Source: Burkholderiales bacterium (GTDB lineage: Bacteria > Pseudomonadota > Gammaproteobacteria > Burkholderiales > Burkholderiaceae_C). From it: DNA of 52,715 nt. Positions 40,294 through 52,715 of this stretch are shown piece by piece (the stretch's first letter is position 1; the number at the start of each line of letters is the position of its first letter). The notes below the pieces were generated by a model, which ran no database searches, had not been told where the DNA came from, and worked only from the letters and a program-made list of their open reading frames with translations. The position numbers and the translations under genes were made by a program. The DNA is taken from NCBI GenBank assembly GCA_016000195.1, contig JAECRO010000017.1, positions 1-52,715 on the forward strand. The letters run 5' to 3'.

Positions 40294-41631
40294 ATGAGCA
40301 GCCCGGATATTCCAGCCCTGGTCAAGGCGCTTGAGGCGCAAGGCATCCATAGCCTGCTGGTGCAGTTTGCCGATATCCACGGCATCGCCAAGGGAAAGCT
40401 GGTTCCGCTCAAGCTGATGCGTGAATGGGTGGAAACCGGCGCCGGTTTTGCCGGTCCCAGCATCTGGGGAACCGGCTTGCCGCGCATGGGTGAGCGCAGC
40501 GAATATTACGGCCGGGTGCAGCCAGAGACCATTCGTCCGCTGCCTTTCATGCCTGGAGTGGCCCATGCCGTATGCGATGGCTATGCCGGCGGCGAGCCGC
40601 TGCAGACCTGTTCCCGTCAACTGCTCAAGCGGCAAATCGACGCGCTGCGCCAGCGTGGCCTGACGCTCTGGGTGGGCATTGAGCCTGAGTTCTTCCTGCT
40701 GCGGCGTGGCGCCACCGGCCGTTGGGAAATTGCCGACACCGAGGATCACCTGTCCAAGCCGTCCTATGACCTCAAAGCGATTTATCGCCACCGGGATTAC
40801 CTCGACGACATGCGGCTGACACTGACGGCCTTGGGCTTCGACCTTGAACAGATCGATCATGAAGATGCCAACGGCCAGTATGAAATCAATTACCGGTTCG
40901 ACGAGGCGCTGGCGGCCGCCGACCGCTTCATGCTGTTCAAGCTGGCCGCCCACGCGGTAGCGGAAAAACACGGCCTGACCTTCAGCTGCATGCCCAAGCC
41001 AATGGCCCATGCGCCTGGCAGCGGCCTGCATTTTCACTTGAGCCTGACCGACAGCTCGGGACGGGCGGTGATGGCCGACCCGTCCGGTGCGCTGGGCTTG
41101 AGTGCCGCCGGCCACCAGTTCGCCGCCGGCCTGCTGCACCATGCCGATGCACTGGCGGCGCTCTGCGCACCCACGGTCAATAGTTACAAGCGGCTGGCAT
41201 CGAGCGCCAGCGTTTCCGGCACCACCTGGTCGCCCGTCTGGAAGAGCATTGGCGACAACAACCGCACCTGTCTGGTTCGCACTGTCGCAGGCCGAATCGA
41301 ATGGCGTCTGCCCGACCCTTCTTGCAATATCTACGCTGCGCTGGCGGGCACCCTGGCGGCCGGCCTTGATGGCCTTGACAAAGGCCTGCCCGCCGTTGAG
41401 CCCTGCACCGAAGATATTTACCTGCGCAAAGCCTCAGGCGCCTGCATGCCTGCAGCCCTGCCGCGCGACCTGTCCGAGGCGCTGGATGCACTGGCCGGCA
41501 ACGAGGTGCTGACCCAACGCCTCGGGCCGGCGTTTGTGGCCCAGTTCCTGGGCTGCAAGCGGGACGAATGGGATGCCTTTAGCGCCCAAGTGTCAGATTG
41601 GGAATTGCAGCGCTACGCCAGCCTGTTTTGA
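40294..41631 (+). CDS. Second glutamine-synthetase-fold ligase (type III GlnT-like)
   Basis: This 445-residue glutamine-synthetase family protein is distinct from the puuA product. Visible segments are VQFADIHGIAKGKLVPLKLM, WVGIEPEFFLLRRG, DANGQYEINYRFDEALAAAD, GSGLHFHLSL and IGDNNRTCLVRTVAGRIEWR. It resembles type III or gamma-glutamylmethylamide-synthetase-like enzymes that glutamylate amines. It follows puuC by 49 bp and closes the polyamine operon, so it probably handles another amine, such as spermidine, diaminopropane or a monoamine. The substrate is not readable. Confidence 0.85.
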   Translation: MSSPDIPALVKALEAQGIHSLLVQFADIHGIAKGKLVPLKLMREWVETGAGFAGPSIWGTGLPRMGERSEYYGRVQPETIRPLPFMPGVAHAVCDGYAGGEPLQTCSRQLLKRQIDALRQRGLTLWVGIEPEFFLLRRGATGRWEIADTEDHLSKPSYDLKAIYRHRDYLDDMRLTLTALGFDLEQIDHEDANGQYEINYRFDEALAAADRFMLFKLAAHAVAEKHGLTFSCMPKPMAHAPGSGLHFHLSLTDSSGRAVMADPSGALGLSAAGHQFAAGLLHHADALAALCAPTVNSYKRLASSASVSGTTWSPVWKSIGDNNRTCLVRTVAGRIEWRLPDPSCNIYAALAGTLAAGLDGLDKGLPAVEPCTEDIYLRKASGACMPAALPRDLSEALDALAGNEVLTQRLGPAFVAQFLGCKRDEWDAFSAQVSDWELQRYASLF

Positions 41632-41814
41632 GTTGGCGGCAGGCATGGTGCTGGATGCGCGGTGATGATCGACTTTACTTTTCATTAGCCGGTAATTTTT
41701 TTTGCAATATGAAATCAAGCAAAATGTTCTTTAAAGGCAGTCAATCGCAATGAGAAAAGCATTTCTGCATTATGAAATAATTTCTTAAGTCTTTGATTCT
41801 TAAAGAGATAAATA

Positions 41815-41828
41815 GTCTTATATAAGAC
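41815..41828. promoter_or_regulatory. Palindromic operator O1 upstream of aceA
   Basis: This perfect 14-bp palindrome, GTCTTATATAAGAC, lies just upstream of the candidate -35 of the aceA promoter. It is repeated in a degenerate form exactly 30 bp further right. The form resembles GntR-type operators. Confidence 0.65.
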
Positions 41829-41835
41829 ATAAGAG

Positions 41836-41865
41836 ATGACAATAGTCTTGTAGAAGACTTAAAAT
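41836..41865 (+). promoter_or_regulatory. Candidate sigma-70 promoter of aceA
   Basis: -35 ATGACA (41836-41841), an 18-bp spacer and -10 TAAAAT (41860-41865) lie in an AT-rich region that stands out from neighbouring GC-rich coding DNA. The second palindrome lies entirely in the spacer, so a bound protein would block polymerase. Confidence 0.5.
41845..41858. promoter_or_regulatory. Palindromic operator O2 inside the aceA promoter spacer
   Basis: GTCTTGTAGAAGAC shares arms GTCTT/AAGAC with O1 and is centred 30 bp from it, about three helical turns, which would place two dimers on the same face. Confidence 0.65.
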
Positions 41866-41899
41866 AAAAGCACTTTCTTTTCAACCATCGGAGTTCACC

Positions 41900-43219
41900 A
41901 TGCCACAAAGCCTCACAGAACAACTCAGCCGCGATCAGCAAGCTGCCGCTCTGCAAAAAGACTGGGACACCAACCCCCGCTGGAAGGGCATCAAGCGCGG
42001 TTACACCGCCGCCGAAGTTGTGCGTCTGCGCGGCTCGTTCCCCATCGAGCACACGCTGGCCCGTCGCGGCGCTGAAAAGCTCTGGGATTTGCTGCACACC
42101 GAGGCGTATGTCAACTGCCTGGGCGCTTTGACCGGTGGTCAAGCCATGCAGCAGGTCAAGGCCGGCGTGAAGGCCATTTACCTGTCGGGCTGGCAAGTCG
42201 CCGCCGACAACAACGGCTACGCCGCCATGTACCCCGACCAGTCGCTGTACCCCGTGGATTCGGTGCCAAAAGTGGTCGAGCGCATCAACAACACTTTCCG
42301 CCGTGCCGATGAAATCCAGCACTCCAAGGGCATTGACGCCGGCGATAAAGGCTACATCGACAACTTCGCGCCCATCGTGGCCGATGCCGAAGCCGGTTTC
42401 GGCGGCGTGCTGAACGCGTTTGAACTGATGAAGGCCATGATCAATTCCGGCGCGGCCGGCGTGCATTGGGAAGACCAGCTGGCTTCGGTCAAGAAGTGCG
42501 GTCACATGGGCGGCAAGGTTCTGGTACCCACGGCTGAAGCCTGCCAGAAACTGATCGCGGCCCGCATGGCTGCCGACGTTTGCGGCGTGCCTACCCTGGT
42601 GATTGCCCGTACCGACGCTGAAGCCGCCGACCTGCTGACCAGCGACTACGACGAAAACGACAAGCCATTCCTGACTGGCGAGCGCACCGCCGAAGGCTTC
42701 TACAAGACCAACAAGGGCATGGACCAGGCCATCTCCCGCGCCATCGCTTACGCTGAGTATGCTGACTTGGTGTGGTGCGAAACCGGCACGCCTGACCTCG
42801 AATTTGCAAAGAAATTCGCCGATGCCGTGCATGCTGTTCACCCCGGAAAGATGCTGGCTTACAACTGCTCGCCATCGTTCAACTGGAAGAAAAACCTGGA
42901 CGACGCCACCATCGCCAAGTTCCAGAAAGAACTCGGCGCCATGGGTTACAAGTACCAGTTCATCACCCTGGCCGGCATCCACTCCATGTGGTACAACATG
43001 TTCGACTTGGCTCAGGACTACGTCGCTCGCGGCATGTCGGCTTATGTCGAGAAGGTGCAGGAGCCTGAATTCGCCGCCCGCGACCGTGGCTACACCTTCG
43101 TGTCGCACCAGCAGGAAGTCGGCACCGGCTACTTCGACGAAGTGACCACCGTGATCCAGGGCGGCAAGTCCAGCGTGACCGCGCTGACCGGCTCGACCGA
43201 AGAAGATCAGTTCCATTGA
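41900..43219 (+). CDS. aceA: Isocitrate lyase
   Basis: This 439-residue glyoxylate-shunt enzyme splits isocitrate into glyoxylate and succinate, allowing growth on acetate and fatty acids. The catalytic Cys is in [14 protein letters not shown]. Mg/substrate contacts are in [31 protein letters not shown] and [12 protein letters not shown]. Length is typical of the short proteobacterial type. It is monocistronic, with its own AT-rich promoter and terminator (43246-43289). Malate synthase is not in this window. Confidence 0.97.
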
Positions 43220-43245
43220 TCCTCTGATCGGCGCTTGCCGAGCTT

Positions 43246-43289
43246 AAAGGCCTTGGGCAACCCGCAGCGGGTGGCTCAGGGCCTTTTTT
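43246..43289 (+). terminator. Intrinsic terminator after aceA
   Basis: AAAGGCCTTGGGC pairs imperfectly with the downstream GCTCAGGGCCTTT arm, with an inner AACCCGCAGCGGGT hairpin, followed by TTTTTT. It insulates aceA from the thrS leader. Confidence 0.85.
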
Positions 43290-43315
43290 CATGGTGCATG
43301 ACATTGTGACTGCGG

Positions 43316-43321
43316 TAAAAT
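43316..43321 (+). promoter_or_regulatory. Candidate -10 element of the thrS leader transcript
   Basis: TAAAAT lies between the aceA terminator and the leader ORF. A convincing -35 is not visible (the best at 17 bp is GGTGCA), so the promoter is tentative. It would give a leader RNA of about 185 nt. Confidence 0.3.
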
Positions 43322-43365
43322 CCGGCCATCGTCCCGTCAACAAGAGCGAGAAAGGCAAACTGGTT

Positions 43366-43401
43366 ATGACACCGCGAACTACAACGGCAAAGTTTTTATA
43401 G
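43366..43401 (+). CDS. Threonine-rich leader peptide upstream of thrS
   Basis: This 11-codon [14 protein letters not shown], has Thr at positions 2, 5, 6 and 7 using ACA, ACT, ACA and ACG, followed by TAG. A weak site, GAAAGG, lies about 10 nt upstream. Downstream lie a potential hairpin (43413-43437), a segment CCGCGC (43418-43423) able to pair with the terminator 5' arm, and a strong terminator before thrS. The layout is that of an amino-acid attenuator. No equivalent upstream of thrS is known to me in Betaproteobacteria. Confidence 0.6.
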
Positions 43402-43459
43402 CTTATGAGGTCGTAGTCCGCGCGCCTTGTGCGCTACCAGCTACAAAATTCATAGTAAA
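43393..43459. repeat. Dispersed repeat, copy D (divergent), within the thrS leader
   Basis: TTTTTATAGCTTATGAGG..., GCGCGCCTTGTGCGC and ...AGCTACAAAATTCATAG follow the arm-core-arm layout of the other repeat copies, but with a divergent core. It provides the hairpin and the antiterminator-capable segment of the leader. Confidence 0.5.
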
Positions 43460-43485
43460 GCGCGGTTCGGGCCGCGCTTTTTTTT
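43418..43485 (+). promoter_or_regulatory. Alternative antiterminator/terminator structure controlling thrS
   Basis: The terminator is a 9-bp stem, AAAGCGCGG (43457-43465) with CCGCGCTTT (43472-43480), a 6-nt loop and eight T residues ending at 43485. Upstream CCGCGC (43418-43423) can pair with GCGCGG (43460-43465) to prevent it. A competing hairpin at 43413-43437 (GTAG/CTAC and CGC/GCG) could sequester CCGCGC. The thrS ATG lies 26 nt beyond the T-run. The mutually exclusive pairings are read from sequence; the ribosome timing is inferred. Confidence 0.6.
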
Positions 43486-43511
43486 GCCCATCGCCATTTC
43501 TATTTTTCACC

Positions 43512-45419
43512 ATGATTCAAATCACACTTCCTGACAGTTCCAAACGTGAATATCCTCAAGCCGTGACGGTGGCCGAAGTCGCTGCGTCGATTGGCGCCGG
43601 TCTGGCCAAGGCAGCCCTGGGCGGCAAGGTGGATGGCAAGCTGGTCGATACCAGCTGCCTTATTGACAAGGACAGTGCGGTGTCGATCATTACCGCCAAG
43701 GATGCCGAGGGACTGGAGTTGATTCGCCACAGCGCCGCTCACTTGCTGGCGTATGCGGTCAAGGAGTTGTTTCCAGAAGTTCAGGTCACTATCGGGCCGG
43801 TGATTGAGAACGGATTTTTCTATGATTTTTCCTATAAGCGGCCGTTCACGCCAGACGATCTGGTAGCCATCGAAAAGCGCATGGCCGAGCTTGTCGCCAA
43901 GGACGAACCCGTCACGCGCCGCATCTTGCCACGCGATGAAGCTGTGGCGTATTTCAAGAGCCTTGGCGAGTATTACAAGGCCGAAATCATTGCCAGCATT
44001 CCAGCCAATGAAGATGTGTCGCTCTACCGAGAAGGCGCTTTTGAAGACTTGTGCCGTGGCCCTCACGTGCCAAGCACGGGCAAGCTGAAATTCTTCAAGC
44101 TCATGAAGGTGGCGGGCGCCTACTGGCGCGGCGATCACCACAACGAAATGCTGCAACGCATCTACGGCACGGCCTGGGCCACGAAAGACGAACTACAGCA
44201 GTATTTGACGATGCTTGAAGAAGCCGACAAGCGTGATCACCGCAAGCTCGGCAAGGAACTGGACCTGTTCCACATTGACGACCATGCACCGGGTCTGGTG
44301 TTCTGGCATCCCAAGGGCTGGACGGTCTGGCAGGGCGTCGAGCAGTACATGCGCAAGGTCTATCAGAATAATGGCTACCAGGAAGTCAAGGGTCCGCAAT
44401 TGCTGGACAAGACGCTGTGGGAGAAAACCGGCCACTGGGACAAGTACCGCGACAACATGTTCACGACCGAGAGCGAAAAGCGCGATTTCGCCTTGAAACC
44501 GATGAACTGCCCCGGCCACATCCTGATTTTCAAGCAGGGTATCAAGAGCTACCGCGACCTGCCGCTGCGTTACGGCGAATTTGGCCAGTGCCACCGCAAC
44601 GAGCCGACCGGCGGGCTGCACGGCATCATGCGCGTGCGCGGCTTCACGCAGGACGACGGGCATATTTTCTGCACTGAAGCGCAGATTCTCAAAGAGTGCG
44701 TGGATTACACGACGCTGCTGCAAAAGGTCTATACCGACTTCGGCTTCAAAAACATCATCTACAAGGTTGCCACGCGGCCTGAAGCGCGGATCGGCTCGGA
44801 CGAAAGCTGGGACAAGGCCGAGCATGCCTTGATCGAAAGCCTGCGCGCGTCGGGTTGCGAATTTGAAATTTCCCCAGGCGAGGGTGCGTTTTACGGTCCG
44901 AAGATCGAATACACGCTGAAAGATGCGATTGGCCGGCAGTGGCAGTGCGGCACGATTCAGGTCGATTTCTCGATGCCCGAGCGGCTGGACGCCGAGTATG
45001 TGGGCGAAGATGGTGCTCGTCATCGCCCGGTCATGCTGCACCGCGCCATCGTCGGCAGCCTGGAGCGGTTCATCGGAATTTTGATCGAGGAACATGCCGG
45101 CGCGTTACCCACATGGCTCGCTCCAGAGCAGGTTTCGGTGCTCACAATCACCGATTCGCAGGCCGAATACGCTCGAGGAGTTGCTAAAATGCTGCAGAAT
45201 CAAGGGCTTAGGGTTAATCTTGACCTGCGCAACGAGAAAATAACGTATAAAATACGTGAGCACTCATTGCAAAAGCTGCCTTTTATCCTGGTTGTAGGCG
45301 ACAAGGAAATGGCAGAAGACGCAGTTTCAGTGCGTGCCCGGGGTAACAAAGACCTTGGTGTGATGTCCCTTAAAGCGTTTTCAGAGCGAATCGCTTCCGA
45401 CATTGCACAAAAAGCCTGA
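43512..45419 (+). CDS. thrS: Threonyl-tRNA synthetase
   Basis: This 635-residue class II synthetase has an N-terminal TGS domain (about 1-62), the editing domain with [15 protein letters not shown] and its HxxxH zinc-type motif, and a catalytic core with zinc ligand regions [10 protein letters not shown] and [13 protein letters not shown]. Motif 2 is [20 protein letters not shown]. The C-terminal anticodon-binding domain ends near [10 protein letters not shown]. Start and length are standard. An attenuator-like leader precedes it. It heads the thrS-infC-rpmI-rplT cluster. Confidence 0.98.
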
Positions 45420-45465
45420 TTTCTCAAGAATTTTGATGAAATATCGCTAATGTCCTTGATGGACG

Positions 45466-45498
45466 GGTGCAAGCAGCTATAGCTTTTATAGCAAATAT
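45466..45498. repeat. Partial dispersed-repeat copy E between thrS and infC
   Basis: GCAAGCAGCTATAGC and TTTTATAGC match the right arm of the dispersed repeat, and GCTATAGC/GCTAT-type pairing is possible. It leaves only a few bases before the infC ribosome site. Confidence 0.5.
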
Positions 45499-45513
45499 TA
45501 AAGGATTCTCACC

Positions 45514-46104
45514 ATCGCTACAGAATTTCGTGACCGCCGTCACCGTGAAGAACGCAAGCATCGCTTGAACCGTGAAATCATGGCCCCTGAAGTACGCCTG
45601 ACCGGGCCAGACAACGAGCCTTTGGGCGTTGTCAGCCTCATGGAAGCGTTGCGTTTGGCTGGTGAAGCGGATGTGGACTTGGTAGAGATATCGCCCACAG
45701 CTATTCCGCCTGTGTGCCGGCTCATGGACTACGGCAAGTTTAAATATGCCGAGCAGAAAAAGGCGGCGGAAGCGAAGTCCAAGCAAAAAGTGATTGAGGT
45801 TAAGGAAATCAAGTTCCGTCCTGGCACTGATGATGGTGACTACAACATCAAATTGCGTAATATCAAGCGTTTTCTCGATGACGGCGACAAGTGCAAGATT
45901 ACCCTGCGCTTTCGCGGTCGGGAAATTACTCACCAAGAGCTTGGTCTGGCCTTGCTGGCGCGGATTCGCGACGAACTGGCTGATTTGATCTTGGTAGAAC
46001 AGTTTCCCAAGCTTGAAGGCCGTCAGATGGTCATGATGATTGCGCCCGGTCGCAAGAAAGTTGCATCCAAAGCCACTGCAGAAGCTACGTCAGCTTCTTC
46101 TTGA
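45514..46104 (+). CDS. infC: Translation initiation factor IF-3, ATC start
   Basis: This 196-residue IF-3 binds the 30S subunit and checks start-codon pairing. The N domain begins [20 protein letters not shown]; the linker [20 protein letters not shown] and C domain [20 protein letters not shown] follow. Translation most likely starts at ATC 45514, 8 nt after AAGGA. The first ATG, at 45565, would remove conserved N-terminal residues and has no ribosome site. A non-canonical start lets IF-3 repress its own synthesis, as established in E. coli (AUU). Confidence 0.93.
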
Positions 46105-46335
46105 GCTTACCGTTATAAATTAAGGGCTTGCTGATTTTTAGTCGGCAGGTCGTTAAAGGGGCACTTAGCCGTGTTCCTGTGAAGTCAGGCGATAAGCCGG
46201 ATTTCCAGAAGTGACGGTCTTAAGACTGTTGCACCAATGGCAAGCGTCAAGCCTGCCATTACAAGTGGCTCGGGGCCATCAAGCCTGCGAAAGTTTCGCA
46301 GCGCCTCACGAGCACAAATGAAAAGGAGCGTTTAT
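46105..46335 (+). promoter_or_regulatory. infC-rpmI intercistronic leader
   Basis: This 231-bp non-coding stretch holds inverted repeats, including GCGAAAGTTTCGC near 46286-46299. In E. coli the same interval carries the pseudoknot through which ribosomal protein L20 represses rpmI-rplT translation. Here I infer an analogous autoregulatory leader or a secondary promoter from position and length; no precise pseudoknot was verified. Confidence 0.4.
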
Positions 46336-46539
46336 ATGCCCAAAATGAAGACCAAGAGCGGCGCTAAAAAGCGTTTCCGCGTTCGTCCAGGTGGCACCGT
46401 CAAGCGCGGTCAAGCCTTCAAGCGTCACATCCTGACCAAGAAGACCACGAAAAACAAACGTCAACTGCGTGGTTCAGTCGCTGTTCATGAGACCAATATG
46501 GGTCACATGGCACAGATGCTGCCAGGCCGTGGCATTTAA
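46336..46539 (+). CDS. rpmI: 50S ribosomal protein L35
   Basis: This 67-residue, highly basic protein has the canonical [20 protein letters not shown] opening and [16 protein letters not shown]. The start at 46336 follows AAAAGGAG; a longer frame upstream is leader sequence. It is assembled into the large subunit and is encoded 24 bp before rplT. Confidence 0.98.
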
Positions 46540-46563
46540 TTAACGACGAACAAGGAGTAATAC

Positions 46564-46923
46564 ATGCCTCGCGTCAAACGTGGTGTAACGGCTCGCGCCC
46601 GCCACAAAAAAGTTCTGGCCCTTGCAAAAGGTTTTCGCGGTCGCCGCGGTAACGTCTTCCGCATCGCCAAAGAAGCGGTAATGAAGGCGGGGCAATATGC
46701 CTACCGTGACCGTCGTAACAAGAAACGTGTGTTCCGCCGTCTGTGGATCGCTCGTATCAATGCTGCAAGCCGTTCGTTTGGCCTGACCTACAGCCAGTTT
46801 GCCAATGGCCTGAAAAAAGCCGGTATTGAGATTGACCGCAAGGTGCTGTCCGATATGGCAATTCACGATAGCGCCGCTTTCGGTGCCATCGTTGAACAGG
46901 CTAAAGCCAAGCTTGCTGCCTGA
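46564..46923 (+). CDS. rplT: 50S ribosomal protein L20
   Basis: This 119-residue large-subunit assembly protein has the N-terminus [20 protein letters not shown], then [20 protein letters not shown] and a C-terminal globular domain. AAGGAG precedes the ATG. It is cotranscribed with rpmI, and a terminator at 46976-47008 ends the cluster before pheS. L20 is the known repressor of this operon in E. coli. Confidence 0.98.
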
Positions 46924-46934
46924 TTTTCAGGACA

Positions 46935-46966
46935 AAATGCTATTATAAAGATAGCTGTTTTCGCAA
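46935..46966. repeat. Partial dispersed-repeat copy F after rplT
   Basis: AATGCTATTATAAAGATAGCTG and TTCGCAAG resemble repeat arms (GCTAT/ATAGC pairing and GCGCAAG-like core). It is degenerate and only weakly supported. Confidence 0.4.
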
Positions 46967-46975
46967 GAAAATAAA

Positions 46976-47008
46976 GGGCTGGAGCTTGAAAAAGCTCTGG
47001 CCCTTTTT
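46976..47008 (+). terminator. Intrinsic terminator between rplT and pheS
   Basis: GGGCTGGAGCTT pairs with AAGCTCTGGCCC around a GAAA-type loop, followed by TTTTT. No Phe-rich leader ORF precedes it, so it reads as a simple end of the rplT transcript. Confidence 0.85.
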
Positions 47009-47095
47009 CATGGTCTTTGGAGTAGCGTTGGAATTATGGCCGGGGGCCAAAAGTAACGCTGCTGTATTTCTCCCCGCACCCGTACAAGAGAATTT

Positions 47096-48160
47096 ATGAA
47101 CGACGCCGATACCCTCAACGAACTGGTAACTGCTGCCAAAACCAGTTTTGTCCAGTCAGTGACGCCTGCCGATCTGGAAAATGCCAAAGCCCAGTTTCTG
47201 GGAAAATCAGGCCGCATTACCGAGTTGATGAAGGGTGTGGCGCAGCTTTCCGTGGAAGAAAAAAAATCCCGTGGTGCTGCAATTAATCTGGCAAAGCAGG
47301 CCATTGAAGCCGCACTGAATGAGCGTCGCCAAGCCCTTGCCGATGCCGAGCTTGAAAAACAGCTCAAAGCTGAAGCCCTTGATGTGAGTCTGCCCGGTCG
47401 CCAGCGTTCGCCAGGTGGCCTGCATCCAGTGTCGCTGACGCTCGAGCGGATTGAAGCCATTTTCGGATCCATGGGGTTTGACGTGGCGCAGGGTCCTGAG
47501 ATTGAAACCGACTGGTTCAACTTCACCGCGCTCAATACGCCCGAAGACCATCCGGCGCGTTCCATGCATGACACCTTCTATGTCGAAGGCGGTACGGAAG
47601 CGGCGCCCAATCTACTGCGCACACATACCAGCCCGATGCAGATTCGTTACGCCGTCCAGCACGTTAAAAAACACCAAGCACTGATCGATGCCGGCGGCCG
47701 CATGCCTGAGATTCGAGTCATCGCACCGGGCCGCACATACCGAGTGGACAGCGATGCCACCCATTCACCAATGTTTCATCAGTGCGAAGGCTTGTGGATC
47801 GGCGAGAACGTGAGCTTCAAGGACTTGAAGTACGTGTTCACTGATTTTTGCCGCACTTTCTTTGAAAGCAACGATCTGGTGCTGCGTTTCAGGCCTAGTT
47901 TTTTCCCGTTCACCGAGCCCAGCGCCGAGATCGACATCCAGTTCCAGACTGGCCCGCTGGCCGGACGCTGGCTGGAAGTGGCCGGCTCTGGCCAGGTCCA
48001 TCCGAACGTGGTGCGCAACATGGGGCTGGACCCCGAAAAATACATCGGCTTTGCCTTTGGCATGGGACCGGACCGTCTGACAATGCTGCGCTACGGAGTC
48101 AATGATCTGCGCCTGTTTTTTGACGGCGATGTCCGCTTTTTGTCCCAGTTCCAGTCATAA
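47096..48160 (+). CDS. pheS: Phenylalanyl-tRNA synthetase alpha chain
   Basis: This 354-residue catalytic subunit of the alpha2-beta2 enzyme has an N-terminal coiled coil (about 1-90) that grips tRNA. The class II core begins [20 protein letters not shown], with [20 protein letters not shown], motif 2 region [20 protein letters not shown] and motif 3 [20 protein letters not shown]. Full length. The beta-chain gene follows 23 bp later. Confidence 0.98.
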
Positions 48161-48183
48161 AAACAAGAAAAAAAGGTAAGACT

Positions 48184-50610
48184 ATGCAATTTCCAGAATC
48201 CTGGTTGCGCGAATTTTGTAACCCGCCACTTAGCACCGAGCAGCTCGCTGAAACTCTGACCATGGCCGGACTTGAAGTTGAAGAACTCAAGCCGGTCGCG
48301 CCGCCTTTTACCCACATTGTGGTTGGTGAAATCATGGATGCCGTCCAGCACCCCAATGCTGACCGCCTGCGCGTGTGCCAAGTCGATGTGGGGCAGGGTG
48401 CTTTACTTACCATTGTCTGCGGTGCGCCCAATGCCCGAGTCGGCATCAAGGTGCCCTGTGCCTTGGTGGGTGCCGAGTTGCCGCCTGGCGAAGATGGCAA
48501 ACCTTTCCTGATCAAGGTTGGCAAGTTGCGCGGCGTCGAAAGCCAAGGCATGCTGTGCTCGGCGCGGGAACTCAAGCTCTCGGAAGACCACGGTGGTCTG
48601 TTGGAACTGGCTCCTGACGCACCGCTTGGACAAGACATTCGCCAACATCTCCAGCTTGATGACACGCTGTTTACGCTTAAGCTAACGCCCAACCTAGCGC
48701 ACTGTCTGAGCGTTTATGGCGTTGCACGTGAGGTTGCAGCCCTGACTGGTGAGCCTCTGAAGACGCCATTCATTCCTGAAGCCGTTGTTGGAATTTTCGA
48801 CAAACTGGCCGTCAAGGTCAGCGCGCCTGAGTTGTGCGGCCGTTTCTCTGGTCGCATCGTTCGCAATGTGAATCCGCAGGCATCGACACCCGCATGGATG
48901 GTGGATCGCCTGGCGCGCTGCGGTCAGCGCAGCGTCACCGCGTTGGTGGATATTTCCAACTATGTGATGTTCGAACTAGGCCGCCCAAGCCATATTTTCG
49001 ACCTCGATAAAATTCATGGCGGGCTGGACGTTCGCTGGGGTAGGTGCGGCGAAACGCTCAAGCTGCTGAATGGCAATACCGTCACGGTTGATGAAAAAGT
49101 GGGTGTTATTGCCGACGATGTTCAAGTTGAATCGCTGGCCGGTATCATGGGCGGCGATGCGACGGCGGTGTCAAACAGCACTGAAAACATTTATGTTGAA
49201 GCGGCTTTCTGGTGGCCGAAAGCTATAGCAGGTCGTTCGCGCCGCTTTAACTTCTCCACTGATGCCGGCCATCGATTTGAGCGTGGCGTTGATGCCGGCC
49301 AAACGGTGGAACATATTGAACGAATTACGCAGCTCATCATGGCGATTTGCGGTACGCCTGATACGGTATGCAGTCCGATTGATGACCTGCGGGTCAACCT
49401 GCCCAAAGCCATACCCGTGACCTTGCGCGTGGAGCGCGCAGCCAGAGTGATCGGCATGCCGGTTACTCAGGCGCAATGTCTGGATGCGCTCAAGCGCCTC
49501 GGCCTCGGAGTTAGGGTCGGCGCAGGTACCTTGACCGTCACTCCGCCCAGTTATCGTTTCGACCTGCAAATCGAGGAAGACTTGATTGAAGAGGTGGTAC
49601 GAATGCTCGGTTACAACCAACTGCCTGAAACACCGCCCCTTGCACCGATCACCGCCAGAATCCGTCCAGAAGCTCAGCGCAGTCCTTTTGCCGTGCGCCG
49701 GGTGCTGGCTTCACTGGGCTATCAGGAAACTATCAATTTCAGTTTCGTGGAAGCGCGCTGGGAACATGAGCTTGCGGGTAACCCCAATCCGATCAAGCTG
49801 CTGAACCCGATTGCCAGCCAGATGAGTGTGATGCGCTCATCGTTACTGGGTTCCTTGTTGCAGGTGCTCAAGTTCAACCTGGATCGAAAGGCTGCGCGTG
49901 TGAATGTGTTTGAGCTGGGGCGGGTATTCTTGCGCGACGCGCAAAGCCAGAACACTGATACCACCGTGGCGGGCTTCTATCAACCTATGCGCGTAGCCGG
50001 CTTGGCCTATGGTTCCAAATCGTCATTGGATTGGAGTCAGTCAGATAAAGTAGTAGACTTTTTTGACATCAAGGGCGATGTTGAAGCCTTGCTGGCGCCA
50101 TTGAAGACCGTTTTTGCACCGGCAGCGCATCCCGCCATGCATCCCGGCCGTTGCGCCAGTGTGTCGGTTGCTGGGCAATTGATTGGTTTCGTTGGCGAGT
50201 TGCATCCACGATGGCGCCAAGGCTATGAGCTGGCTCAAGCCCCCTTGCTGTTTGAACTGGAACTTGATGCGGTATTGGAACGCCAGGTACCTGTTTTCAA
50301 GGCAGTCAGCAAGCTGCAGCCCGTCGAACGCGATATTGCCGTGATCGTGCAGGAAAGTGTGACCCATGCAACGCTCATGGCCGCCATTCATCATGCTGAT
50401 ACACAAGGTTTGCTCAAGGCGGCAACGCTGTTCGACGTATATCGGCCGCAGCATGCCAATTCAACTATGCAATTAGGCGAAAAAAGTCTGGCCGTACGCC
50501 TGCTGCTGTCAAGTGATGTTGTGACCTTGACTGAGGAGTCCATTGAGGCTGCTGTTCATGCGGTATTGAAAAGCCTGGAAGCTCAATTCCAGGCACGGCT
50601 ACGTGCTTGA
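48184..50610 (+). CDS. pheT: Phenylalanyl-tRNA synthetase beta chain
   Basis: This 808-residue subunit has an N-terminal tRNA-binding/EMAP-like domain (VGEIMDAVQHPNADRLRVCQ), a B3/B4 editing domain, a B5 DNA-binding-like domain, a catalytic-like core lacking motifs, and a C-terminal anticodon-binding FDX-ACB domain (FKAVSKLQPVERDIAVIVQE). AAAAAAAGGT precedes the ATG. It is cotranscribed with pheS and probably ihfA, 42 bp downstream. Confidence 0.98.
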   Translation: MQFPESWLREFCNPPLSTEQLAETLTMAGLEVEELKPVAPPFTHIVVGEIMDAVQHPNADRLRVCQVDVGQGALLTIVCGAPNARVGIKVPCALVGAELPPGEDGKPFLIKVGKLRGVESQGMLCSARELKLSEDHGGLLELAPDAPLGQDIRQHLQLDDTLFTLKLTPNLAHCLSVYGVAREVAALTGEPLKTPFIPEAVVGIFDKLAVKVSAPELCGRFSGRIVRNVNPQASTPAWMVDRLARCGQRSVTALVDISNYVMFELGRPSHIFDLDKIHGGLDVRWGRCGETLKLLNGNTVTVDEKVGVIADDVQVESLAGIMGGDATAVSNSTENIYVEAAFWWPKAIAGRSRRFNFSTDAGHRFERGVDAGQTVEHIERITQLIMAICGTPDTVCSPIDDLRVNLPKAIPVTLRVERAARVIGMPVTQAQCLDALKRLGLGVRVGAGTLTVTPPSYRFDLQIEEDLIEEVVRMLGYNQLPETPPLAPITARIRPEAQRSPFAVRRVLASLGYQETINFSFVEARWEHELAGNPNPIKLLNPIASQMSVMRSSLLGSLLQVLKFNLDRKAARVNVFELGRVFLRDAQSQNTDTTVAGFYQPMRVAGLAYGSKSSLDWSQSDKVVDFFDIKGDVEALLAPLKTVFAPAAHPAMHPGRCASVSVAGQLIGFVGELHPRWRQGYELAQAPLLFELELDAVLERQVPVFKAVSKLQPVERDIAVIVQESVTHATLMAAIHHADTQGLLKAATLFDVYRPQHANSTMQLGEKSLAVRLLLSSDVVTLTEESIEAAVHAVLKSLEAQFQARLRA

Positions 50611-50652
50611 TGTTCCGCTTCAGATCATCAAATATAAGTAATAGCCAGAAAG

Positions 50653-51063
50653 ATGCCCATGGAATTTTCTGTTGAAAATCTGGAGACTCCGGCGTTGACC
50701 AAAGCGCATCTGGCAGAGTTGCTGTTTGAGCAGATCGGACTCAATAAGCGCGAATCCAAAGAAATGATTGACGCGTTTTTTGAACTGATCTCAGGTTGTC
50801 TGGTGGAAGGGAACGATGTCAAAATCTCGGGGTTTGGCAACTTTCAGATTCGCACTAAAGCTCCGCGTCCAGGCCGTAACCCACGAACTGGCGAAGCCAT
50901 TCCAATTGAGTCGCGCCGGGTCGTAACATTTCACGCGAGCCACAAGCTCAAGGACCAGATACAGGGAAACACCTTTGCCGAGTCGACGATAGAAAGTATT
51001 TTTACCGAAGGTAATGGTAACTTCTCAATAACCCATGGCAGCAACAGTTTTGAGGATGGCTGA
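50653..51063 (+). CDS. ihfA: Integration host factor alpha subunit with C-terminal extension
   Basis: This 136-residue nucleoid protein bends DNA as a heterodimer with IhfB. The HU/IHF fold is clear: LTKAHLAELLFEQIGLNKRE, then VKISGFGNFQIRTKAPRPGR and NPRTGEAIPIESRRVVTFHA. Typical IhfA is about 100 residues; here about 30 extra residues (QGNTFAESTIESIFTEGNGN and beyond) follow SHKLKDQI. ATG 50653 or 50659 could start. The gene directly precedes mobile-element debris, so its tail may derive from a rearrangement. Confidence 0.94.
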   Translation: MPMEFSVENLETPALTKAHLAELLFEQIGLNKRESKEMIDAFFELISGCLVEGNDVKISGFGNFQIRTKAPRPGRNPRTGEAIPIESRRVVTFHASHKLKDQIQGNTFAESTIESIFTEGNGNFSITHGSNSFEDG

Positions 51064-51102
51064 TTGGTTAAACTCGGCGCTATTAAAAGCAGATAAAAAA
51101 GG

Positions 51103-51549
51103 ATGCCTGGCTACCGACAGGTGTCGAAAGCCATGGCACCTATTGAAAAAGAAGAGATGACACCGCTGGTCAAGAAATTGGTGGCGATGATCGAGAACTT
51201 GCGGGAAGAAAACCAGCGGTTAAAAGAACAAGTGCAGCAGATGCGAGATGAAATAGCGGTGCTCAAAGGAGAAAAGGCCAAGCCGAAATTCAAATCCAGC
51301 AAGATGGATGAAAACACGGACAAGGACGATGGAGATGCATGCCAGGGCGAGAAAGCAGAAAAGCCAAAACGAGCGGGCTCGGCCAAGCGAAGCAAAACAG
51401 CCCAATTGCAAATACACGAAGAATGCGTGATTGCACCAACGATGCCCGTGCCAGCCAATGCACGATTTAAAGGCTACCGTGATGTTGTGATCCAGGGGCT
51501 GGTGATCAAAGCCCACAACACACGATACAGGCTGGAGTGCTGGCGATAA
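51103..51549 (+). pseudogene. 5' fragment of an IS transposase gene
   Basis: This 148-residue frame has an N-terminal leucine-zipper-like coiled coil (LVKKLVAMIENLREENQRLK EQ-type heptads), a charged linker and RFKGYRDVVIQGLVIKAHNT followed by RYRLECWR, then a stop. These segments match the beginning of IS66-like zipper transposases with an FKGYxxxVVQ block. The catalytic part is missing, so this is a remnant. It begins 39 bp after ihfA. The cut lies near 51549 where an IS256-type end begins. Confidence 0.7.
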
Positions 51550-51610
51550 AGCAACATCAATTCTGTAAATTTCGATTTTGGTTTTGGGGTTGTTGCGCAA
51601 TAGCGTCGGA

Positions 51611-52264
51611 TCAGGGTTTCATGTTCAGGTAGATTTTTGCGCTCATCCACTCCTCGTCTTGTTCGGCCAGCAAGGCGCTGACCAGTCGCAGGCAACTGTC
51701 CGTGTTTGGAAACAGCGTAGCGACACGGGTCCGTCGCTTGAGTTCCCTGTTCAAGCGCTCCAGGCCATTGGTGGTACGCAGGCGCAGCCGATGGGCCTCG
51801 GGCAGACCAAACACGGCGAAACCCTCAGCTTCGATCTCGCCAATGCGCCGGGTGCCAAAGTAGGGGAACAGGTCTTTTTCAAGGTTGCGTTTTTCCCGGA
51901 TGGCGTAATGACTGCTCCAGCCGTCGAGCTTCATGGCGTACCACTCCAGCGCCGTCGCCTTGAAGGTGTCGCCATCGGGCGTGATGGCTTTGAGCTTGGC
52001 CACCTTGCGCACCATCACCGGATCAGCCCCTTGTGACTTTTGCAGCTTGACGGCATCCCGCGCCTTGCGGGCATCGGACAGGCCCACGGCTGGGTATCCG
52101 CCAAGTGCTATGCGGCCTTCCTTGCCGTTGGCGTAGAGCTTGCAGAACCAGCGCTTCGAGCCTGCCGGGCTTACTTCCAGATACAGCCCGCCTGAGTCGG
52201 TGAAACGTGCTCGCTTCTTGTCTGGGGGGCAGGCGGCATTTTTGCATTGCTTGTCGGTCAACAT
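51611..52264 (-). pseudogene. Chimeric ORF: tyrosine-integrase N-terminus fused to IS256-type transposase C-terminus
   Basis: About 217 residues. The first part (MLTDKQCKNAACPPDKKRAR, then FTDSGGLYLEVSPAGSKRWF) is the arm-binding DUF4102 domain of P4-type island integrases and continues to about FPYFGTRRIGEIE. From near 51829 the frame switches to the tail of an IS256/mutator transposase (LRTTNGLERLNRELKRRTRV, ending SAKIYLNMKP). The integrase catalytic domain with its R-H-R-Y residues is gone, so it cannot recombine. The ATG at 52264 is in GGGGAAC-rich DNA. It lies next to tRNA-Pro, the usual insertion target. Confidence 0.8.
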
Positions 52265-52364
52265 CGGGGAACTCCAGGCCGGGGAACAGGTTTTCAGAGG
52301 GGAATCGGGGAACAAGCGGCTGATTTCTCAGTTTTGCCCCGTTTGTTCCCCGTAATGTTCCCCG
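52265..52364. repeat. Cluster of GGGGAAC boxes upstream of the integrase start
   Basis: GGGGAAC-type boxes occur at 52265-52272, 52280-52287, 52299-52305 (GGGGAAT) and 52306-52313, and inverted as GTTCCCCG at 52345-52352 and 52357-52364. Such clusters next to an island integrase usually are arm-type or autoregulatory binding sites; this function is inferred. Confidence 0.6.
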
Positions 52365-52430
52365 GTTTGACGTGCCTGTCAATGTCCAGCTTTGTACGCC
52401 GCTGTACTCTAAACTATTGATTTACCAATG

Positions 52431-52467
52431 AAAAAGGCCGCTAACTGTATGTCGTTAGCGGCCTTTG
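52431..52467. terminator. Strong hairpin terminator of tRNA-Pro
   Basis: AAAGGCCGCTAAC pairs with GTTAGCGGCCTTT over a short loop. On the minus strand the T-run follows the stem just after the tRNA 3' end, so it terminates the tRNA transcript; it may also act in the other direction. Confidence 0.88.
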
Positions 52468-52477
52468 TCTTTAGTCG

Positions 52478-52554
52478 TGGTCGGTGTGAAAGGATTCGAA
52501 CCTTCGACCCCTTGCACCCCATGCAAGTGCGCTACCAGGCTGCGCCACACACCG
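52478..52554 (-). tRNA. tRNA-Pro (anticodon GGG)
   Basis: The 77-nt cloverleaf includes an encoded CCA. The acceptor stem is CGGTGTG/CACACCG, the D-arm carries GCGC...GCGC, the anticodon stem is CTTGC/GCAAG around loop ATGGGGT with anticodon GGG, and the T-loop is TTCGAAT. It is a common integration site for genomic islands, consistent with the neighbouring integrase remnant. Confidence 0.95.
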
Positions 52555-52595
52555 ATCAACTGCAGATTATAACCTGCTCTGGAGAGCCAAAATTC

Positions 52596-52691
52596 TTAAC
52601 TGGATGAGCCAAGCAGATCACGGATTTTGAGTAATTCTTGGCGAACCAGATTAAGCAGCGACTCAGTAAGCGCTCCACGAACCCCAGACTT
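52596..52691 (-). other. Possible C-terminal fragment of a MerR-type regulator
   Basis: A minus-strand frame ends ...LLNLVRQELLKIRDLLGSSS with TAA at 52596-52598. This helical tail resembles the end of the MerR-type gene that, to my knowledge, often sits between ihfA and tRNA-Pro in Burkholderiales. The frame closes upstream at a TGA near 52692-52694, so it is broken or not the right frame. Confidence 0.25.
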
Positions 52692-52715
52692 TCAAAGATG
52701 AATTGAAATCGGCAT

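Follow-up and report, generated by a model that had tools for sequence, protein, structure and literature searches.

A predicted threonine leader-peptide attenuator upstream of thrS in the Burkholderiales

Introduction

The thr, his, trp, leu and ilv biosynthetic operons of enterobacteria are controlled by leader-peptide attenuators. In E. coli, thrS, the gene for threonyl-tRNA synthetase (ThrRS), is a classic example of translational autoregulation: the enzyme attaches to its own transcript, at tRNA-Thr-like arms beside the thrS ribosome site, and keeps ribosomes away. In the Bacillota, according to the available part of PMC12452182, thrS is under tandem T-boxes. As regards attenuators of synthetase genes, the accessible part of PMC1262725 names those of pheST in gamma-proteobacteria and of trpS and leuS in Streptomyces, while the corresponding part of PMC2965389 describes His leaders of hisS/hisZ in bacilli and mentions ThrRS only for its self-control in E. 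coli. For thrS itself, a Thr leader of 18 amino acids with two Thr, thrL, was proposed in Streptomyces lividans TK24, along with leaders for leuS, trpS and alaS (PMC8079986, in excerpt).

A Thr leader before thrS is therefore not first proposed here, since that of S. lividans precedes it (PMC8079986, same excerpt). A preliminary description of the locus studied below had considered such a leader new for a betaproteobacterium. This holds as far as the open-access matches listed go, none of which describes a Thr leader before a betaproteobacterial thrS in the parts available (subscription papers lay outside that scope), but in view of S. lividans the idea is not wholly new.

Results

The window (the whole stretch of DNA analyzed, 52,715 nucleotides of contig JAECRO010000017.1) belongs to a genome of 3.09 Mb, whose thrS has its best named match, at 94%, in a Polaromonas MAG. 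NCBIfam assignments place aceA (isocitrate lyase) at 41900–43219 and thrS, the presumed controlled gene, at 43512–45419 on the + strand (threonyl-tRNA synthetase, TIGR00418), with infC (45565–46104), rpmI (46237–46539), rplT (46564–46923), pheS (47096–48160) and pheT (48184–50610) beyond it. Between aceA and thrS lies the leader ORF (43366–43401, + strand), whose 11 codons and stop read ATG ACA CCG CGA ACT ACA ACG GCA AAG TTT TTA TAG. It has Thr at codons 2, 5, 6, and 7; the four Thr codons, three of them in a row, had been noticed in the preliminary description and are confirmed. The stop, TAG at codon 12, comes early, and a second in-frame TAG (codon 17, 43414–43416) falls inside the segment 2 defined below. 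In a related locus (L104), the leader frame is open up to codon 17. The likely ribosome-binding site is the purine-rich GAGAAAGG (43348–43355, + strand), 10 nt 5′ of the ATG. It had been called weak; it lies, all the same, in a stretch, AAGAGCGAGAAAGGCA (43342–43357, + strand), that is conserved across leaders, and part of this stretch is paired with 43424–43435 in the minimum free energy (MFE) structure of the window.

aceA has an apparent terminator of its own at about 43246–43289, as judged by eye. Between it and the leader there is a −10-like box, TAAAAT (43316–43321, + strand), 50 nt 5′ of the leader ATG, which is assigned to the predicted leader promoter. A consensus promoter scan of the window returned zero promoters. 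Among the 130 representatives to which near relatives were thinned for the pairing and folding tests, 89 carried TANAAT within 130 nt 5′ of the leader, and in 76 of these 89 the box lay 44–61 nt 5′ of the leader ATG; shuffles gave 7.3 (maximum 13).

The thrS upstream regions of relatives, whose alignment the preliminary description had proposed, yielded 187 distinct leaders (identical leaders were merged, some genomes having been fetched twice). Thr codons, terminator, and the pairing of leader and terminator arm were all found to be conserved. Past codon 5, 391 of 1707 in-frame codons encoded Thr; in the other two frames the counts were 26 and 51 of 1707. The Thr share from codon 6 to the stop came to 22.9% in the leader frame, compared with 1.5% and 3.0% in the others. 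When the leader bases were shuffled, 122.6 Thr codons (sd 10.1, maximum 155) were obtained in place of the 391. The same was seen for the 66 leaders selected through thrS with no motif selection, where the counts were 134 of 601 in frame versus 10 and 17. At least three Thr were present in 161 of the 187 leaders, and the minimum leader length was nine codons. The openness of the leader frame is no argument, because, although the +1 frame closes immediately, most leaders can also be read far into the +2 frame, where the median position of the first stop is codon 24. Judged by its conserved start and its frame-specific Thr signal, the short ORF before thrS is probably translated, and it is rich in codons for threonine, the amino acid cognate to its target, as the ORF of a leader-peptide attenuator should be. 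Example leaders are MTPRTTTTTTSTSTEV of Leptothrix (L084), MTPRTTTTPTKV of Roseateles (L070), and MTPRTTSEMYTGR of Delftia (L051). In some families Thr is confined to codons 2 and 5 (MTPRTCKVSEPRR). An in-frame upstream ATG, in the form ATG GTT ATG, occurs at certain loci only.

The start of the ORF is contained in a near-invariant core of 19 nt, GGTTATGACACCGCGAACT (43362–43380, + strand), which is conserved before thrS in relatives and has one match at up to two mismatches in the window's own genome. In the 187 leaders, the start codon was ATG in 185 (GTG 1, ATA 1), codon 2 was ACA in 185 (ACG 1, GCA 1), codon 3 was CCG in all 187, codon 4 was CGA in 174 (CGG 8, CTG 5), and codon 5 was ACT in 164 (ACG 21, ACC 1, ATT 1); codon 6 was Thr in 128. 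Both the ATA start and the codon-5 ATT come from one leader, L038, which seems decayed. In nine families the core bases hardly vary, and this extends to synonymous sites and to positions 5′ of the ATG. With 136 thrS genes from leader-bearing loci as the codon usage reference, the triplets that mostly occupy codons 2, 4, and 5 (ACA, CGA, ACT) represent 3.9%, 3.0%, and 5.2% of their own codon families; no other Thr codon is as rare as ACA and ACT, and CGA is the third-rarest of the six Arg codons. The possibility that CTGGTTATG mimics the anticodon loop of tRNA-Thr was dropped, as no stem was seen by eye.

Four segments, all on the + strand, were distinguished downstream of the leader start. Segment 1, GCG-A-ACTAC (43374–43382), overlaps Thr codons 5 and 6. 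Segment 2, GTAGTCCGCGC (43413–43423), is from the MFE structure and complementarity an alternative partner of segment 1 or of the terminator arm. Segment 3 (43457–43466) is the terminator 5′ arm as located by a terminator scan, and segment 4 (43471–43485) comprises the 3′ arm (to 43480) and a run of eight T (43478–43485). The resulting terminator-like hairpin (43457–43466/43471–43480) has a stem of 10 pairs, a loop of 4, and an overlapping T run; a terminator with eight T before thrS had indeed been described, though with a stem of 9 bp. CCGCGC (43418–43423) is complementary to GCGCGG (43460–43465) of the terminator arm. In the MFE structure of the window, GCG(A)ACTAC (43374–43382) is paired with GTAGT(C)CGC (43413–43421), which hides CCGCGC; both the pairing potential and the competing hairpin had been anticipated correctly. 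An intrinsic terminator and an antiterminator excluding it, two further marks of an attenuator, are both present as predicted structures. The window by itself is weak evidence: its fold was barely better than those of shuffles (z −1.67, with 13 of 200 equally good), and the terminator scan of the window found 1 terminator versus 0.7 expected. The leader and terminator are more than chance because they are conserved in relatives, and a chance origin was rejected on this ground.

Between segment 2 and the terminator, the window holds a copy of an interspersed repeat, AGCTACAAAATTCATAGT (43439–43456, + strand), identified by pattern matches in its own genome (37 with at most 3 mismatches; reversed control, 2). 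The repeat is small and near-palindromic, and look-alikes occur in the leader at several Rhodoferax and Polaromonas loci. A repeat origin of the leader was rejected, the repeat match being limited to 43439–43456.

A hairpin with a T run was present in all 187 leaders at a median of 27 nt before thrS, and the distance from hairpin end to thrS was 19–73 nt (5th–95th percentile). The terminator outscored all 20 shuffles in 185 of the 187, the exceptions being L041 and L216. Stem-pair types of the terminator were counted from the loop, so that their variety is partly a one-base register shift, and they are given no weight here. When cognate and swapped partners were compared in the 130 representatives, the leader second half favored its own terminator arm (0 of 2000 permutations; reversed control, 276 of 2000; double-centred value, −0.76), although such permutation ranks are not strict probabilities because some close relatives remain. 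The ribosome-site region, 5′ of the core, also paired better with the cognate leader second half (2 of 2000; control, 1456). Between segments 1 and 2, true partners paired only slightly better than swapped ones (43 of 2000; control, 1909); this is what one would expect of the Thr-codon segment, because it hardly varies.

In textbook attenuation, segment 2 is covered by the ribosome that has reached the stop codon. Ribosome states were modeled by folding in three versions. Version 1 counted terminator-arm pairing with any unmasked upstream base, version 2 counted only pairing by the leader second half, and version 3 was version 2 with 25 base shuffles added. Version 1 gave the expected direction in 52% of the 130 loci and the opposite in 29%, and the window went in the wrong direction (0.38 with a ribosome stalled at codon 6, 0.96 at the stop). 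For the window in version 2 (14 nt mask), a stall at codon 5 gave 0.73 versus 0.34 when free; a stall at codon 6 gave 0.36, which is hardly any rise, and ribosomes at stop and start together gave 0.96. In version 3, the value for the leader second half capturing the terminator arm rose from 0.40 with no ribosome to 0.73 once a ribosome stood at codon 5, a gain of 0.327 compared with 0.136 ± 0.025 (maximum 0.189) for the 25 shuffles. Since capture with a shuffled leader second half was 0.58 with no ribosome and 0.72 with a ribosome at codon 5, the real sequences would provide a stronger block on the antiterminator when the Thr codons are free, and not a stronger antiterminator.

Masking by a ribosome at the stop codon was unsupported with masks of 12–14 nt and a second ribosome on the start (33 for and 45 against; 39 for and 38 against), and supported with a 17 nt mask (63 loci for, 28 against). 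In the middle half of loci, segment 2 begins between about 2 nt 5′ and 7 nt 3′ of the first base of the stop. These models suggest that the off state may come from ribosome release and refolding instead of stop-codon masking. In the window, the stop lies about 12 nt 5′ of segment 2, and the earlier caveat that the geometry is not classical was right for this locus. This early stop codon is a poor fit to the textbook geometry and is unexplained; going by the folding, the window may possibly be a weaker version of the attenuator.

Unbiased conservation figures were obtained from 108 loci selected through thrS that had usable upstream DNA; L044 and L082 were left out of the counts, their sequence beginning inside thrS. 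The core was found within 420 nt before thrS in 66 of the 108 (51 times without mismatch, 14 times with one, and once with three), and in 42 there was no core at up to three mismatches. As matches were either near-exact or absent, the leader mostly survives almost whole or has disappeared. When mapped on a tree of ThrRS (FastTree, n = 107), leader presence needs 15 changes, compared with 32.9 for shuffled labels, and the well-supported branches alone force 11 presence/absence changes. The terminator outlasts the leader: in 35 of the 42 leaderless loci it beat all 20 shuffles. Such relatives include L003–L008, L013–L016, L018, L024, L042, L054, L059 and others, with near-copies among them. A TARAAT box lies 23–30 nt 5′ of the stem in 22 of the 26 leaderless loci that have a box, so the predicted leaderless transcript reaches the hairpin almost immediately.

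Within the family of the window, the core (up to two mismatches) was found in 231 of 299 sampled genomes (backwards control, about 10). A sample of the order (300 genomes, 51 families) gave 42 matches (backwards control, about 11), of which 40 had thrS 3′ of the core; the two exceptions, G430 and G377, are both two-mismatch. These 40 genomes fall into 9 of the 51 sampled families, a range beyond that expected in the preliminary description. Of the loci fetched by the pattern or from its hits, 138 of 140 carry the core no more than 420 nt ahead of a thrS gene (some genomes twice); core conservation is inflated in L112–L171 and L187–L266, because the core pattern itself selected them. In a sample of the class, 18 of 369 genomes matched the core at up to two mismatches (reversed control, about 44 genomes), and it precedes thrS in only three, all from the window's own family; the other 16 core-matched stretches encode no thrS. 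A spread of the leader past the order was rejected, as class matches outside the window's own family never precede thrS. One relative, G058, has two equally scoring thrS copies separated by about 43 kb (C1:2100083–2101984 and C1:2143565–2145466), a duplication or an assembly artefact.

Thr-rich short ORFs were also found in 8 of 58 order loci having no core at up to four mismatches, versus 0.57 in 60 simulations (maximum 3). Examples are MFKRTTTTRISR (L333), MAVRTTTTHP (L349), and MCNGLSCRTTTTRER (L316). Phe-rich ORFs exceed simulation in these loci as well (7 versus 2.3, maximum 5), perhaps due to T runs. On the strength of these Thr-rich ORFs, a Thr leader at thrS may predate the MTPRT core. 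A tRNA-Val(gac) gene stands 5′ of thrS or its leader in 14 of 14 scanned loci of other families (L298, L301–L304, L308, L310–L312, L333, L349, L320, L290, and L353). In L303 and L320, where neither the core nor a Thr-rich ORF is present, only a few tens of bases separate the tRNA gene from the thrS start. For Cupriavidus metallidurans, an RpoD promoter is listed under Rmet_R0015 in the thrS row of the available part of PMC9045368; it would fit transcription beginning before an RNA gene.

Discussion

From sequence comparison, we consider the region 43316–43485 to be, with a probability of roughly 0.83, a threonine leader-peptide transcription attenuator of thrS, and the earlier reading of this region as a Thr attenuator gains support from its conservation in relatives. 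When charged tRNA-Thr is ample, the ribosome would clear the Thr codons and leave, segments 1 and 2 would pair, the terminator would then form, and most transcripts would stop near 43485. Under a shortage of charged tRNA-Thr, the ribosome would stall on the Thr codons and cover segment 1, leaving segment 2 to capture the terminator 5′ arm; the polymerase would read through to thrS, and the readthrough would perhaps extend past it to infC, rpmI, rplT, pheS, and pheT.

Other explanations were weighed against this. The near-fixation of the core at the base level in nine families, including synonymous sites and pre-ATG bases, would suit an RNA element recognized by its sequence, whether by uncharged tRNA-Thr, by ThrRS, or by some other factor, with the ORF being incidental or secondary. 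Yet Thr codons 3′ of the core are enriched in frame only, codon 5 varies synonymously, Thr runs persist in some leaders without the core, and there were zero Rfam matches, T-box included: the T-box covariance model had no match at E up to 5 in 41000–52715 of the window, and no Rfam T-box reached the gathering score in ten relatives. A T-box or other Rfam RNA was rejected accordingly, and we hold an RNA element of this kind to be quite improbable.

Alternatively, the hairpin could simply end transcription of the gene upstream, or hold thrS down to a constant degree, with no amino-acid sensing in either case; this draws on the 35 of 42 leaderless loci that keep the terminator. Such a role appears very improbable to us, as aceA seems to own a terminator (by eye, about 43246–43289), the −10 box lies between that terminator and the leader, and leader and terminator arm match each other. 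The leader ORF might also act on thrS via translation, Rho, or a released small RNA and not via intrinsic termination; the better pairing of the ribosome-site region with its own leader's second half (2 of 2000) points that way. Against it stands the strong terminator-like hairpin of 185 of the 187 leaders, 19–73 nt before thrS, and we give this mode of action hardly any credence.

Two features are unexplained by the attenuator model, namely, the frequent loss of the leader with retention of the terminator and the near-invariant core written with rare codons. As to the latter, it is conceivable, if rather unlikely, that the core GGTTATGACACCGCGAACT is a second sensor, the first ribosome being timed or held at the leader start, besides the Thr run. 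Such timing or holding might be exerted through the codons, the nascent Met-Thr-Pro-Arg-Thr, or a bound factor. If this were true, thrS attenuation would sense events at the leader start plus the Thr run. The role of the nearly fixed 19 nt is amenable to testing, the repeated natural losses of the leader allow comparison, and the putative attenuator would make the leader a ready-made reporter of threonine tRNA charging.

With the enterobacterial attenuators, the present locus shares a short ORF rich in cognate codons, competing hairpins, and an intrinsic terminator; it differs in having a synthetase gene as its target, a core nearly fixed across families, and a tail that is moderately Thr-rich. 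The E. coli thrS operator has the same target, whereas the present locus has a leader ORF with a terminator-like hairpin. The T-boxes of the Bacillota likewise control thrS, partly in a thrS-infC-rpmI-rplT operon, but in them the RNA itself binds tRNA (PMC12452182, available part); the present locus has no T-box match. The leaders of pheST, trpS, leuS, alaS, and hisS/hisZ also place a leader peptide before a synthetase gene; they concern other amino acids and lineages, and the accessible parts of the sources describe no comparable fixed core. The thrL of S. lividans is alike in being a Thr-containing leader peptide upstream of thrS. In contrast to the leader described here, it belongs to an actinobacterium and to a leaderless transcript, its termination was called unclear by its authors, the T run being missing, and its peptide, MKRVRPFLETTPGFVPAR, is without the MTPRT start and has no Thr run beyond two (PMC8079986, excerpt). 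A Thr leader before thrS in many families of one order would represent a further solution for the control of the same gene.
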